64,000 bases of DNA from Deroplatys truncata. Its lineage: Eukaryota; Arthropoda; Insecta; Mantodea; Mantidae. The position numbers and the translations under genes are program-made. The stretch is from NCBI GenBank assembly GCA_030765065.1, contig CM060986.1:72967573-73031572 (forward strand). The letters are read 5' to 3'. The notes under the pieces are model-generated. The model had not been told where the DNA came from. It did no database searches and saw nothing but the letters and a program-made list of their open reading frames with translations. Each line of letters starts with the position of its first letter. Position 1 is the stretch's first letter. This document shows, piece after piece, positions 35,160 through 58,746 of the stretch.

Positions 35160-36169
35160 ATGTATTTATTTATTTATTTCGTGTGTATGTTCACATTTAT
35201 ATCATGGGTCCGTCCACATCACAGTAAGTTGAGTACTCTTTTGGAAAATTATGTAAAAAAATTGTTCACCGTGGAAAGAATACTTAGTCATTAATTCACA
35301 GCGCTTTTTTCTCTCTGTTAATATTTGAATATTATCAGAGAAAATCTTGTAACTCAGGAACAAAGAATCTGGTGACTCTTTAGCTTGTTTACTCAAGTTG
35401 CTAAATGAAACATAACGTGCATCTGGTGTTGTAAGTGTAACCGATAATAAGCGTCTCTTTACAAAATTGATTAATAATGGCATGTTTTACAACATAGAAA
35501 CTATGTATAAATGTATAATGAGGCCTAATTAAACACACATTTTCAGCAAAGGTAAAAGACAATGTGACAAGCTGCCACATCAACCCCTAATTTTCCTCCT
35601 ACAAATATTCTATTACATATCAAGTAAATGAAATTTTTTTAACTATAACACGAATAAGACATAAAAGTTTTCCTTTTTCAAATCTTAGGAGCATGCTATC
35701 AGAGGATTCACAGAAATTAATAATTTATGTATATGTATATCTGAGCTACTTCCCACCGTTACAGAATTTAAAATGAGAATGTTTGTGTGCCATATTGGAT
35801 ATAATTCAGTTTTCAACTTCACAGAGCGAGATGGCTATTCGTGTTGCTCACGCAAGCTGTTCTCTGCAGTTTTATGTTTCCCGCATACGGTGGTGTAAAA
35901 AGTCAATTTTTCAAAGGGGAAGTACATGTACAAGGGAAAAGTCACCGAGTAATGCTGTTCTCTGCTCTCGTGGTCGTCCGTTTGCAGTTCGAGTCAGGCC
36001 ATTCAGTCAAACAGGTACAGCTGAAATGTTCACCAACGACGATCGCACAGATATGGTAATTATTAGGCTTCGGACATGACTTTAGGTTAAGTTAACTTCT
36101 ATTATAGCTACTGCTACATTGTTTACAAGCGAACGGAAAGGAGAGAGGCAGTAGTCTAATGCACTACTA
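35160..36169. other. No gene recognised
   Basis: A 98-codon frame at 35783-36079 is unassigned. Its last residues, MFTNDDRTDMVII (about 36029-36067), resemble the start of DUF4817 transposases, so a 5' scrap of such an element is possible. Confidence 0.35.
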
Positions 36170-36224
36170 CTGTGTTTTTCAAATGGGATGATGTTTGTCC
36201 TTGAGCGCGGCCAGAGCGGCAACC

Positions 36225-36295
36225 AATCGGAGTTCCGCTGTGTTGTCATATTGCATTCGCCGTAAGCTAAGCATGACGCGTGCTAAGCGAATGTG
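36225..36295. promoter_or_regulatory. Subterminal palindrome of the Sailor element
   Basis: Imperfect inverted motif with outer ATTCGC / GCGAAT and inner GCATGACGCGTGC. ATTCGCTGTAGCTCAG near the right end (38449) is similar. It could be a transposase-binding site; this is inference. Confidence 0.4.
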
Positions 36296-36790
36296 TTTCT
36301 AATACATATAATTTGCGCTAAGACAAAAATTCAAATTTTGCAAAAAGTAACCCACTAGAAGGTAGGGAGTAATTTTCGTAACACAACCGTAAAAACCACA
36401 TATTTTTAGCTCAAATAGTTTTCATAATACAAACAAATAAACATTCCCATATGTTATAATATAACCACGTAAGCACTGTAATGGTCACATTATTTGTATG
36501 TATGCATTATTGTATACATTATGTATATATATTTGTAATTATACAGAACTACTGACTTGATGGTGATAAAGAATTATGTTGTAAAACCAAGGCGTTTGTT
36601 AAAGCTGAAAGAGAGCAAACAGCCCACCAAGCTCACTTGTGTTACTTGTAGAATCTGCAGAACGTGAGCCGTCACATGTTTATGATTGTGTGTTATTTTT
36701 AAATCTGGGTTGGAGTTTATTTACCCTACACAGTTAATATCAGTATTCAGTTGTTGTTCAGAGAGCAAGCAGCAAGAGTAAAATAGTGCA

Positions 36791-38206
36791 ATGGCTTATT
36801 GTGGTGAATTTAGTGGCGAGTCAAAGAGGCAGGTATTGCGAAGTCAGGCTCGAAGTATTATATTTAGGGTCTACTCGTTTTTTAAAAAATGTAACAATGA
36901 GGAACACAGAAATCAACTTGATTTCAAAAATCCTCAACAGCTTACTGCTAAAGCGTGTTGTGTCGGTAAAGCAAGTGTGTCTCGCATTTGCGGAGAGGCA
37001 AGAAAATCTGTTCCCAGTGATACTCCAGTGTTTGTATCGCCCAGAAAGCACATTGGACCTCCGAAGAGGATTACAAATTTAACTGACTTTGACAAGGACG
37101 TTGTACGCAGAACTGTTTTCGAGTTTTATGACCAAGGTGAATTCCCAACAATACAGAAAATAACTTGTGCCCTTAGAACTAAAATATCATACACTGGTTC
37201 AAATTCATCTACTTATAGAATTTTGAGAGGATTAGGGTTCAGGTACAGAAAGACAAATGATGGGCGACAATTTTTAATGGAGAGGAGTGACATTGTTGCG
37301 GCAAGAATAAAATTCTTACGCAAAATGCACGAAATTCGCAATTCTTGCGATACGAGACCTATATTTTACTTAGATGAGACATGGGTAAATAAAAACCACA
37401 CTCAAAATTCAATCTGGCAAGATTCCTCAAAAAAGGGTGGCCTGAAGGTACCTGTTGGAAAAGGCAGTCGACTTATCATTTGTCATGTAGGGTCCGCTAA
37501 GACAGGATTTGTACCTGAAAGCAAATGGATTTTTCTGTCCAAAACCACCTCAGATTATCACGAAGAGATGACAGCTGATACGTTTAAAGAATGGTTTTTG
37601 AACAGATTCCTAAATTATTTAGAAGAGGGAAGCATAATTATAATGGATAATGCACCATATCATTCGGTTATTGAAAACAAAGTACCGAATACTGCCAGTA
37701 GAAAGAACGAAATTGTTGAATGGTTGCAAAAAAAGGGGGTTGAATTTTCGGCAACAGAAACTAAAAATGAGTTACTGCAACGAGTACTTCCATTTAAAAA
37801 CCAGGGAAAAGTGTATCAGCTGGATCAACTTGCAATGGAAATGGGACACGAGGTAATCCGCCTCCCCCCTTATCACTGCCAGTATAATCCAATTGAGTTA
37901 GTATGGGCTCAAATAAAACGAGGGGTTGCAAACAGAAATAACACTTTTAAACTGACTGACGTTGAACGTCTTATTCACGAAGAAATTGACAAGGTAACTC
38001 AACAAGACTGGGAAGCCTGCGTGAGACATGCAGAAAAACTACAAGAAGACGACTTTTGGAAAGAAATAGGCCGTGACGATATTTTGGAACCTATCATCAT
38101 AAATTTGCAAGACTCAGACGATGAAGACAGTGTCAGTGACGAATTGCCTCTTCACGTAACTGATGACAGTGATACGGATGAGCCACTGGCAGTTCCATTG
38201 GATTAA
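36791..38206 (+). CDS. Sailor-type (DD82E) transposase, 471 aa
   Basis: It would cut the element out and insert it at TA sites, acting in the nucleus. Two helix-turn-helix-like segments lie at about residues 51-72 (LTAKACCVGKASVSRICGEA) and 118-150, separated by a basic GPPKR linker near 89-93. The catalytic triad is D195 (YLDETWVN), D286 (IIIMDNAPYHS) and E369 (YNPIELVW), with 82 residues between the last D and E. Published Sailor elements are defined by this DD82E spacing; Tc1 has 34. PPYHCQYNPIE, the usual lead-in to the last Glu, is intact. The C-terminal ~40 residues are highly acidic (QDSDDEDSVSDE). The frame has no stop or shift, so the gene may be active or recently so. The start at 36791 is the first ATG in frame. 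Confidence 0.9.
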   Translation: MAYCGEFSGESKRQVLRSQARSIIFRVYSFFKKCNNEEHRNQLDFKNPQQLTAKACCVGKASVSRICGEARKSVPSDTPVFVSPRKHIGPPKRITNLTDFDKDVVRRTVFEFYDQGEFPTIQKITCALRTKISYTGSNSSTYRILRGLGFRYRKTNDGRQFLMERSDIVAARIKFLRKMHEIRNSCDTRPIFYLDETWVNKNHTQNSIWQDSSKKGGLKVPVGKGSRLIICHVGSAKTGFVPESKWIFLSKTTSDYHEEMTADTFKEWFLNRFLNYLEEGSIIIMDNAPYHSVIENKVPNTASRKNEIVEWLQKKGVEFSATETKNELLQRVLPFKNQGKVYQLDQLAMEMGHEVIRLPPYHCQYNPIELVWAQIKRGVANRNNTFKLTDVERLIHEEIDKVTQQDWEACVRHAEKLQEDDFWKEIGRDDILEPIIINLQDSDDEDSVSDELPLHVTDDSDTDEPLAVPLD

Positions 38207-38484
38207 AAGCACAGGTAATTCATATCCTATAATTATATAACACTTAAAAAATACGTACGTAGCATGCGAGTATATTCCCAATTATGAATTTAAACACCAG
38301 GAGAATTATAAAAGTTTAGATAATTCAGTTTGGGTTGCTTTACGTCGACCATTCTAGCGACAGGCAGATGTGAGAGTGAGAGGGAAATATGAAAAGAGTG
38401 GGGGTAACGAGGTGGCAACGCTGTGCACGCAAATGCATCTTATTCGCTGTAGCTCAGAACTCTTCCCATTTGAAACTAATAGTA

Positions 38485-40495: not shown

Positions 40496-41560
40496 ATGTT
40501 TCTGAATAGAGAGTATCTGGGCATGCTGTTAATATACGGGGAAGCGCAGGAGAATGCGAGGGGGGCACGTTGTCTATACCAACAGAGGTTTCCGCAGAGA
40601 ACACTTCCTACAGATCAAACGTTTTTGAGAATTGCGAACCGCCTTCTGGAATCAGGAACAGTGCACAAGACACCGCATCCACGAAATCACCCTGTCCGTG
40701 ACCAAGCAACGGCGGATCGTGTGACTGACTATGTCATTCAGCATCCGCATTGTAGTACGAGGGACATTCACAGGCGTTTCAATATTAGCCAATCTTCCAC
40801 GTGGAGAATACTACATCATGCAAAATTTCACGCCTATCATCTTCAACTACACCAGGAGCTACTGCAGCTGGACCATGGACGGAGAGTGGCGTTTGCTAGG
40901 TGGATCATAGACAAACTGAATAAGGTCCACATTTTTGGCAGCTGTGTTATTTACAGGCGAAGCGGGGTTCCACAACACAGGCCATGTAAATCGCTACAAC
41001 ATGCAATACTGGAGCTCTGTAAACCCACATTGGATGCGATAGGCGGCCTTACAGTTCCGATGTGGTTTCAACCTTTGGGCTGGTATATTCGGTGATCATC
41101 TAATAGGCCCGTATTTTTATGATGCCTGGGAATCGCTATATCCACTTCTTACAACACCAGCTGCCTACTCTACTGAATGAAGTGTCGTTGCAGAACCGAC
41201 TATGTGGTACCAACATGATGGGGCGCCAGCTCATTCGGCCCTTCGTGTAACGGCTTATATCGTCACCTACCCTGAGCGATGGATCGGACGGCATGGACCA
41301 ATACGGTGGCCAGCACGCTCACCAGATCTAACCCCTTTAAATTTCTTCTAATTGGTTATTTTAAAGATAACGTGTACCAGGAGCGGCCAGTGACCCCTCA
41401 ACAGCTCAGGGAAGCATTGTCTTAGCTTGCCGTGACATCACACCGCCCATGTTGCGCCAGGTTAGGCTGGCGATGATGGTTAAACTGAAATCTTGCAACC
41501 GCCGGCACGGTGGCCAGTTCGAACACCTTTTACAACTACATGGAGGAAACTGATAAATTG
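40496..41560 (+). pseudogene. DUF4817-type Tc1/mariner-like transposase, decayed
   Basis: The first frame (40496-41095) has an intact N-terminus: EYLGMLLIYGEAQENARGAR, LYQQRFPQRTLPTDQTFLRI, then the ISQSSTWRILHHAKFHAYHL block, typical of the DUF4817 group. After about 40950 the frame shifts repeatedly. Recognisable later blocks are a NPHW-like region, FNLWAGIFGDHLIGPYF near 41070-41120, YQHDGAPAHSA (second catalytic Asp) near 41210-41240 and PARSPDLTPLNFF (third) near 41308-41346. The C-terminal GGQFEH-type end is at about 41510. The full order of a ~340-residue transposase is there but with many lesions. It differs from the F1-F4 family. Confidence 0.78.
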
Positions 41561-55159: not shown

Positions 55160-56480
55160 CGAGGGTAATCCCAAAAGTAAGGTCTCCAATTTTTTTTAAA
55201 TACAAAGAAACTTTTATTGTCAACAAATGGTACATAGTTTTGAAGCTTTAACATTTGTCTATTTTTCCACATAATTACCATTTCGGTCGATGCATTTTTG
55301 TAGACGCTGTGGCAGTTTTTGTATGCCCATGTCATACCAGCTTGCCGCCAAGCTCTTGAAAAAGTGATGGACCTCATTTTTCACTTCGTCGTCACCGAAG
55401 CGCCTTCCAGCCAAGTGTTCTTTCAACTTGGGAAACAAGTGGTAGTCACTGGGTGCTAAGTCTGGACTATAGGGTGGATGGGTGATGGTTTCCCATCCAA
55501 ATTGTTGCAGAAGATTCATGGTTTGACGGTCGGTGTGGGGGCGAGCATTGTCATGGAGAAGGCTTATGCCCTTGCTCAACATTCCTCTTCTACGGTTCTG
55601 AATTGCCCGTCTGAGTTTTTTTAATGTCTGACAATACCTGTTGGCATTTATTGTTGTCCCAGGATCCATAGTCGACCAACAATATCCCCTTTCGATCCCA
55701 AAACACAATTGCCATGACTTTACCTGTAGACAGTGTTCTCTTGAATTTTCGCAGCTTGGGTGAACTGGAATGCCGCCACTCACGTGATTGTTGTTTGGTC
55801 TCAGGTGTGAAGTGGAAAGCCCAGGTTTCATCACCCGTGACTATTGAATCCAAAAGGTTGTCCTTTTCGTCTGCATAGCGTTGAAGGAATTGGCGGGAAG
55901 TTTCAGCGCGTTGCCTTTTGTGATCTTCTGTTAGCATTCTTGGGACCCATCTTGCACACACCTTCCGAAATTTTAACTCTTCAATCAAAGTCCGATGAAT
56001 AGTGCTTCGAGAAATCTCAGGAACAACAATGCAGAGCTCATCGAGAGTGATCCGCCGATCTTGAAGCACAATTTGTTCAACCTTTGCGATTGTTTCGTCA
56101 GAAATGGACGGTCTCCTGCATCTTTCCTCGTCATGAATTTCCGTGCGACCATTTGCAAATTCTCTACACTACTTGCGGACATTTTTGACATCCATACAAG
56201 ACTCTCCATACACTTCCATCAACTGTCGAATTTCGACAGGTTTAACCGCTTTTGCACTCAAAAAGTGAATAACTGCGCGAACTTCGCACCTGGCGGTAGT
56301 GGCTAACGAGAGCTCCATTATAACTGGCTGCCAAGCCAAGACTGAGGGCGCTAAGGGATGTGCGGTGGTTTCGGAAGATAGTGGGGGGAGGAAGGAAAAA
56401 AGCAGTATGGCCAACATCCACAGAAACAGTTTCCCTGCGATCCCAGCGCTTTGGAGATCTTACTTTTGGGATTATCCTTG
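55160..56480 (-). mobile_element. mariner element M3, nearly intact
   Basis: 1321 bp, with inverted termini CGAGGGTAATCCCAAAAGTA (left) and CAAGGATAATCCCAAAAGTA (complement of right), each followed by AG.TCTCCAA. TA lies on both sides. The transposase is on the minus strand with few lesions, so it is the youngest mariner here. It is inserted in R1. Confidence 0.9.
55259..56318 (-). pseudogene. mariner (DD34D) transposase, M3
   Basis: Starts MELSLATTARCEVRAVIHFL at 56318 and ends RNGNYVEK at 55259, about 350 codons, the usual mariner length. I can place two lesions: a TAG at 56169-56171 where the family has Trp (K-stop-CREF), and a frameshift near 55670 just after a KGILLVDY motif. Between the lesions the protein is clean. 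It includes SIVTGDETWAFHFTPETKQQ (first catalytic Asp). Past the shift come LLHDNARPHT (second) and PPYSPDLAPSDYHLF, whose last Asp is 34 residues after the second. All three catalytic residues are kept. Confidence 0.88.
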
Positions 56481-57729: not shown

Positions 57730-57843
57730 CCACAGTGTTAAACTGCATGCTGGACTAAAGAAAGAAAAAATAGCAACTCAAAGTAATGTATTAAAAATTG
57801 TAAGAATTTTGTATAGCATTATGGAAATAAATATATATATATA

Positions 57844-57855
57844 TACATACATACA

Positions 57856-57887
<32 letters not shown>

Positions 57888-57909
57888 CATACATACATAC
57901 ATACATACA

Positions 57910-57941
<32 letters not shown>

Positions 57942-58746
57942 CATACATACATACATACATACATACATACATACATACATACATACATACATACATACAT
58001 ACATACATACATACATACATACATACATACATACATACATACATACATACATACATACATACATACATACATACATACATACATACATACATACATACAT
58101 ACATACATACATACATACATACATACATACATACATACATACATACATACATACATACATACATACATACATACATACATACATACATACATACATACAT
58201 ACATACATACATACATACATACATACATACATACATACATACATACATACATACATACATACATACATACATACATACATACATACATACATACATACAT
58301 ACATACATACATACATACATACATACATACATACATACATACATACATACATACATACATACATACATACATACATACATACATACATACATACATACAT
58401 ACATACATACATACATACATACATACATACATACATACATACATACATACATACATACATACATACATACATACATACATACATACATACATACATACAT
58501 ACATACATACATACATACATACATACATACATACATACATACATACATACATACATACATACATACATACATACATACATACATACATACATACATACAT
58601 ACATACATACATACATACATACATACATACATACATACATACATACATACATACATACATACATACATACATACATACATACATACATACATACATACAT
58701 ACATACATACATACATACATACATACATACATACATACATACATAC
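57844..58746. repeat. (CATA)n microsatellite, ~0.9 kb
   Basis: Follows an (AT)n run. There are two interruptions (CATATACAT) near 57884 and 57938, about 54 bp apart, then an unbroken run of about 200 units to 58746. It is open in several frames (YVCM/YIHT translations), which are not genes. Confidence 0.97.

Follow-up and report, generated by a model that had tools for sequence, protein, structure and literature searches.

The closest described relatives of the element considered here are the Sailor (DD82E) transposons, which Shi et al. (2021, PMC8533490) resolved as a monophyletic clade separate from Tc1/mariner, Gambol, pogo and IS630. In Sailor transposases the second catalytic Asp and the Glu are separated by 78-111 residues, mostly 82, the motif consensus is I/VVYLDET, VIIMDNA and HCELNPIEL, and the spacer was described as holding two inserts of 13 and 36 amino acids with no family match found (PMC8533490). 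The elements measure 1.38-6.98 kb (1799-4408 bp in arthropods, with transposases of 334-676 amino acids) and carry one transposase gene between terminal inverted repeats (TIRs) that usually start with GT or CC; the target duplication is mainly a 4-bp TATA, a majority trait that is not stated to be universal (PMC8533490). Sailor was defined from sequence, and the consulted sections of that paper report no activity assay. ISY100 and Tc1/mariner elements duplicate TA by 2-bp staggered joining (PMC2170065). Here we describe a 2313-bp element within a 64,000-nt stretch (the window) of the mantid Deroplatys truncata (assembly GCA_030765065.1, contig CM060986.1, positions 72,967,573 to 73,031,572). 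Our results make it very probable that this element is a complete Sailor-type DNA transposon that has been amplified and mobile very recently.

The transposase gene (36791..38206, plus strand) is a single open reading frame (ORF) of 471 amino acids, with an ATG start and no internal stop, and it forms the longest stop-free stretch of the window (474 codons). Translation confirmed the catalytic residues proposed in an earlier, sequence-only reading of this DNA, namely D195 in IFYLDET (37373..37375), D286 in IIIMDNA (37646..37648) and E369 in HCQYNPIEL (37895..37897), all on the plus strand, with 82 residues counted between the last two in the translated frame. The Pfam DDE_3 model, an RNase-H-like catalytic domain, matched the protein at E=4.6e-11, and the NCBIfam IS630 model scored 65.6 bits, under its cut-off of 100. 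Sequence searches of solved structures gave no significant match. Mos1 and Sleeping Beauty (SB) were within the top Foldseek rows for the predicted structure, and residues 97-164 (37079..37282, plus strand) may form a winged-helix DNA-binding part. The DDE_3 domain and the TA target duplication are both traits of the IS630-Tc1-mariner hyperfamily. With Tc1/mariner (Mos1, Sleeping Beauty) the element shares the catalytic fold and the duplicated TA, whereas its spacer is longer and its motifs differ (PMC8533490). The likeness to Sailor is closer: the spacing of 82 lies within the published range, the three motifs are near matches, not letter for letter, and the element length, transposase length and short TIRs all fit published values, as do the intact copies, which have been reported for some hosts (PMC8533490). 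The DD82E (Sailor) assignment made in the sequence-only reading is supported by these measures.

The transposon occupies 36170..38482 (plus strand), exactly the termini that had been placed from the letters, and identical borders recur in other copies in the genome. It is flanked by a left (36168..36169) and a right (38483..38484) copy of the target TA, neither assigned a strand. Both ends are present in 48 copies (the window copy and 47 fetched ones), of which 47 have TA on both sides and all 48 have it on the right. The right-end search string contained the right TA, yet it is present in all 48 fetched copies, and the distance from the ORF to this right end is constant. The left TIR (36170..36193, plus strand) contains an exact 12-base core, TTTCAAATGGGA, at 36177-36188, and the right TIR (38459..38482, minus strand) matches the left at 17 of 24 positions; the two termini begin CTGTG and CTATT. 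Over a wider span, 36168-36207 and 38445-38484 pair in inverted orientation at 28/40 positions (70% complementary), the exact 12-mer included. This window-only evidence is modest, as shuffled flanks reached the score of the real ends in 3 of 200 cases, and with 2500-base flanks a simple ATT/TAT repeat came out on top. Since the other copies whose ends were compared have the same mismatch, the 17/24 match reflects the construction of the element and not its decay, and dating by comparison of left and right ends was rejected because those copies have the imperfect ends in common. In five copies (L032, L043, L046, L051 and L073) the left start CTGTG is replaced by TAGTG, GTGTG, ATGTG, CAAAG and ACGTG, respectively, while the right-end string is unaltered; L046 also lacks the left TA. 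Imprecise end joining is possibly responsible.

An open frame alongside ends that match at only 17/24 is what would be expected of a domesticated host gene, that is, a transposase kept open by selection between degenerate ends, and none of 2000 simulated frames stayed open at 15% neutral change, the level that would explain the end mismatch. The search of the 4.29-Gb assembly (818 contigs) is decisive against this explanation. The 90 best-scored of 26,537 first-look candidates all cover residues 1-471 at ~100% identity with an open, stop-free 474-codon frame, which sets the copy number at 90 or more near-identical intact copies; the window copy is among the 33 that have the top score in common. 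The sequence-only reading had proposed looking for other copies with matching termini, and these were abundant, the exact 32-base left end occurring 436 times (215 plus 221; 0 for the reversed control), a count that takes in deleted and broken copies too, and the same TA borders accompanying all but one of the two-ended copies. The right end is common to 48 fetched copies and the left end to 47, in dispersed places with differing flanks. Together with the near-identity, the TA on both sides of 47 of the 48 two-ended copies and the empty sites described below, this refutes domestication for this locus, where we regard it as scarcely credible; some other, single-copy locus could be domesticated. 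The family has been mobile in the recent past and is dispersed, and is not a lone kept gene. The earlier suggestion that the copy may still be active or has been kept by selection thus divides: its first half is favored by the near-identity and by the open frame in 90/90 scored matches, and the second, retention by selection as one host gene, is unsupported because the family is dispersed and multicopy.

The age of the spread was approached through 48 further copies fetched from the 90 scored matches. L021, which lacks the left end, and L049, in which the ORF-start string did not occur exactly, were excluded, and the other 46 were aligned with the window copy. Length was exactly 2313 bp in 43 of the 47, pairwise difference averaged 0.127% with a maximum of 0.43%, 83 of 1081 pairs were identical, and 13 copies, that of the window among them, were identical over the full 2313 bp. 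The mutation rate of insects is about 3e-9 per site per generation. At that rate the amplification would be of the order of 2e5 generations old, an estimate biased young by the choice of copies. The ORF showed less amino-acid-changing than silent variation (8 silent and 5 changing differences), but this was not used as evidence of selection, as the copies had been picked by protein score. From element position 511 onward the excluded L021 does not differ from the window copy, but its left end is replaced by other sequence, with the junction at about locus position 1390.

A less biased sample was taken from the first six left ends outside the scored list, all on contig C1. Two of these (L069 and L073) have the full open frame, two (L071 and L072) are full length with broken frames, and two (L070 and L074) have one common internal deletion of element positions 835-2031. 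Identity is 97% within the deleted pair and 93-94% between either of them and the window copy. The two represent an older non-autonomous derivative of ~1.1 kb; since they are located at different sites, this form has moved too. Broken and deleted copies of this kind would also be found after a burst that is recently extinct, its copies young and the family now silenced or immobile, and identity dates past spread, not current movement. We give this explanation appreciable weight but less than present activity, which we consider fairly likely; the 13 copies identical over their whole length and the 90 scored matches free of any disabling stop or frame break argue against extinction.

The integration target is well defined. 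Across the 48 two-ended copies insertion was into CTAG in 33, C preceded the TA in 41 and G followed it in 39, whereas CTAG makes up 110 of the 5478 TA sites of the window (2%; binomial P ~8e-45, with the background taken from the window only). The target of the window copy is itself CTAA. A 4-bp duplication in the flanks, including TATA, was tested and rejected, with a matching duplication in 0/48 copies and TATA on one side in 1/48; other duplication offsets and lengths, tested in 47 copies, did not reach 15% in any case. ACTA at 36166-36169 and again at 38475-38478 is a chance resemblance to a duplication, the right-hand ACTA being inside the element. One dispersed repeat has an ACTAGT position that is occupied in at least five of the 54 copies fetched (L016, L057, L071, L074 and L030), with L030 oriented oppositely to the other four, and this position is an insertion hot spot. 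The flanks of L016, L030 and L057 differ by 10-12%, far more than their elements (no more than 0.43%), and these are therefore separate insertions. When the joined flanks of L016 were searched, the best 40 of 1,932 candidates each gave a contiguous match of ~196-204 bases. Six of these uninterrupted host repeats were fetched, and all of them contain CTACTAGT and have one TA where the flanks join; what follows is GCG in L068 and ACG in the other five. Because these empty sites hold a single TA, duplication of the TA is directly demonstrated.

The target is also where the element departs from the published account of Sailor, in that TA is duplicated within CTAG and not mainly TATA, and the element starts with CT instead of GT or CC; both features weigh against the assignment that we favor. 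Bacterial IS630 reportedly prefers TA within CTAG, going by the title of a 1991 paper by Tenzen and Ohtsubo that PMC2170065 cites, and the present element resembles IS630 in its TA duplication, its CTAG preference and the alignment of its catalytic core. Five plasmid IS630 proteins, unlike the present transposase, have a 34-residue spacer with no insert. It could be asked whether the element belongs to a lineage of IS630/Tc1 type that is not part of Sailor and acquired its long D-E spacer independently, given this target habit and the TATA reported for most Sailor elements. We think this unlikely. The motifs YLDET, MDNA and HC..NPIEL speak for Sailor. Moreover, a relative was found in L006, a contig of 3270 bp recorded as coming from a Bathymodiolus gill symbiont, which encodes a DD83E protein of 424 amino acids that is 34.6% identical to the transposase over 437 residues, insert included, with an acidic C-terminus in both. 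Its element has arms spanning ~2.33 kb and 114-nt ends that are 81% complementary. Since these element, transposase and TIR sizes fall within the molluscan Sailor ranges (PMC8533490, Table 1), the contig is probably mussel DNA, and contigs of this type could inflate reports of bacterial Sailor and of bacteria-to-animal transfer. In a tree of eight rows (the transposase, L006, the five plasmid IS630 proteins and a mariner frame) the transposase groups with L006 (96/96) apart from IS630, a result to be read with a long-branch warning. The mariner row, which has a long branch, represents only one frame of a gene that is split into two, and its placement is meaningless.

With tblastn at E 1e-5 no relative was found in plasmids and phages, and none was confirmed in viral_contigs. 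When plasmids were searched at E up to 10, all matches were weak and incomplete, the best listed having E 0.05 with the window protein and 3e-6 with L006 as query; six were fetched and five used as the IS630 rows, L012 (Spiroplasma) being dropped for want of an open frame with a catalytic domain. A degenerate HC..NPIEL scan of bacterial genomes returned seven stretches, with a relative encoded only in L006, which does not establish that Sailor is missing from bacteria. The one pattern match in viral_contigs, L001, was a chance match.

The whole lengthening of the D-E spacer relative to IS630 (82 residues against 34 in five of five aligned IS630 proteins) is accounted for by one 48-residue insert, residues 295-342 (37673..37816, plus strand), and not by the two inserts of the published Sailor description, and it has a weak family match. 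A 45-residue piece of it matched Pfam Ish1 at E=7.5e-4 (20.2 bits), and the L006 relative matched Ish1 at E=8.7e-3 (16.8 bits), both under the cut-off of 26.6. Of ten shuffles of the insert, none matched Ish1 and one matched a family unrelated to it (E=0.14). A Foldseek search restricted to the insert returned no significant match. The insert weakly resembles the Ish1 family and the SAP/Rho-type helix-loop-helix folds, with the possible Ish1/SAP-like helix-loop-helix at residues 306-332 (37706..37786, plus strand), while residues 301-330 are the best-predicted part of the structure model. On balance we lean, with little to spare, towards an insert that folds as a SAP/Rho-N-like helix-loop-helix. 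A broader proposal, to which we give slightly less than even credence, is that Sailor transposases are IS630-type enzymes with a small SAP/Rho-like helix-loop-helix module added after the strand of the second Asp and ahead of the next RNase-H helix, the present family being a naturally intact and mobile one that keeps the CTAG target of IS630. On that proposal the insert would not be at beta5-alpha4, the classical position of the insertion domains in Tn5, Hermes and RAG1.

A mechanism can be sketched by likeness to related families. The N-terminal part of the transposase would bind the imperfect inverted ends, and the RNase-H-like D-D-E centre would cut, presumably by the cut-and-paste chemistry of the family. 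Joining at TA, with CTAG or ACTAGT as the preferred context, would then leave TA on each side, with the 2-bp stagger known from ISY100 and Tc1/mariner. The 48-residue insert, which follows the strand of the second Asp and precedes the next helix, would be, somewhat more likely than not, a small helix-extended-loop-helix (SAP/Rho-N-like) that may contact DNA or a partner subunit.

Three other features of the window were recorded: a Tc1-like fragment with a DUF4817 helix-turn-helix at 40496-41095 (plus strand, E=2e-11); a mariner-like transposase at 55259-56069 (minus strand), split over two overlapping frames whose pieces were searched separately; and an ATAC array at 57827-58746 (231 copies, 98% matches) that yields long spurious open frames on both strands.

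In conclusion, the mantid genome holds a Sailor-type family that is natural and nearly uniform and has a defined target. TATA is not universal among DD82E elements, and the CTAG habit links a eukaryotic element to bacterial IS630 in its choice of target. If the D-E insert has a recognisable fold, mutation could be used to test what the long spacer does. The near-identical copies are abundant and naturally intact in frame, their ends are exact and several empty sites have been located, and the family therefore offers a ready test piece for Sailor.
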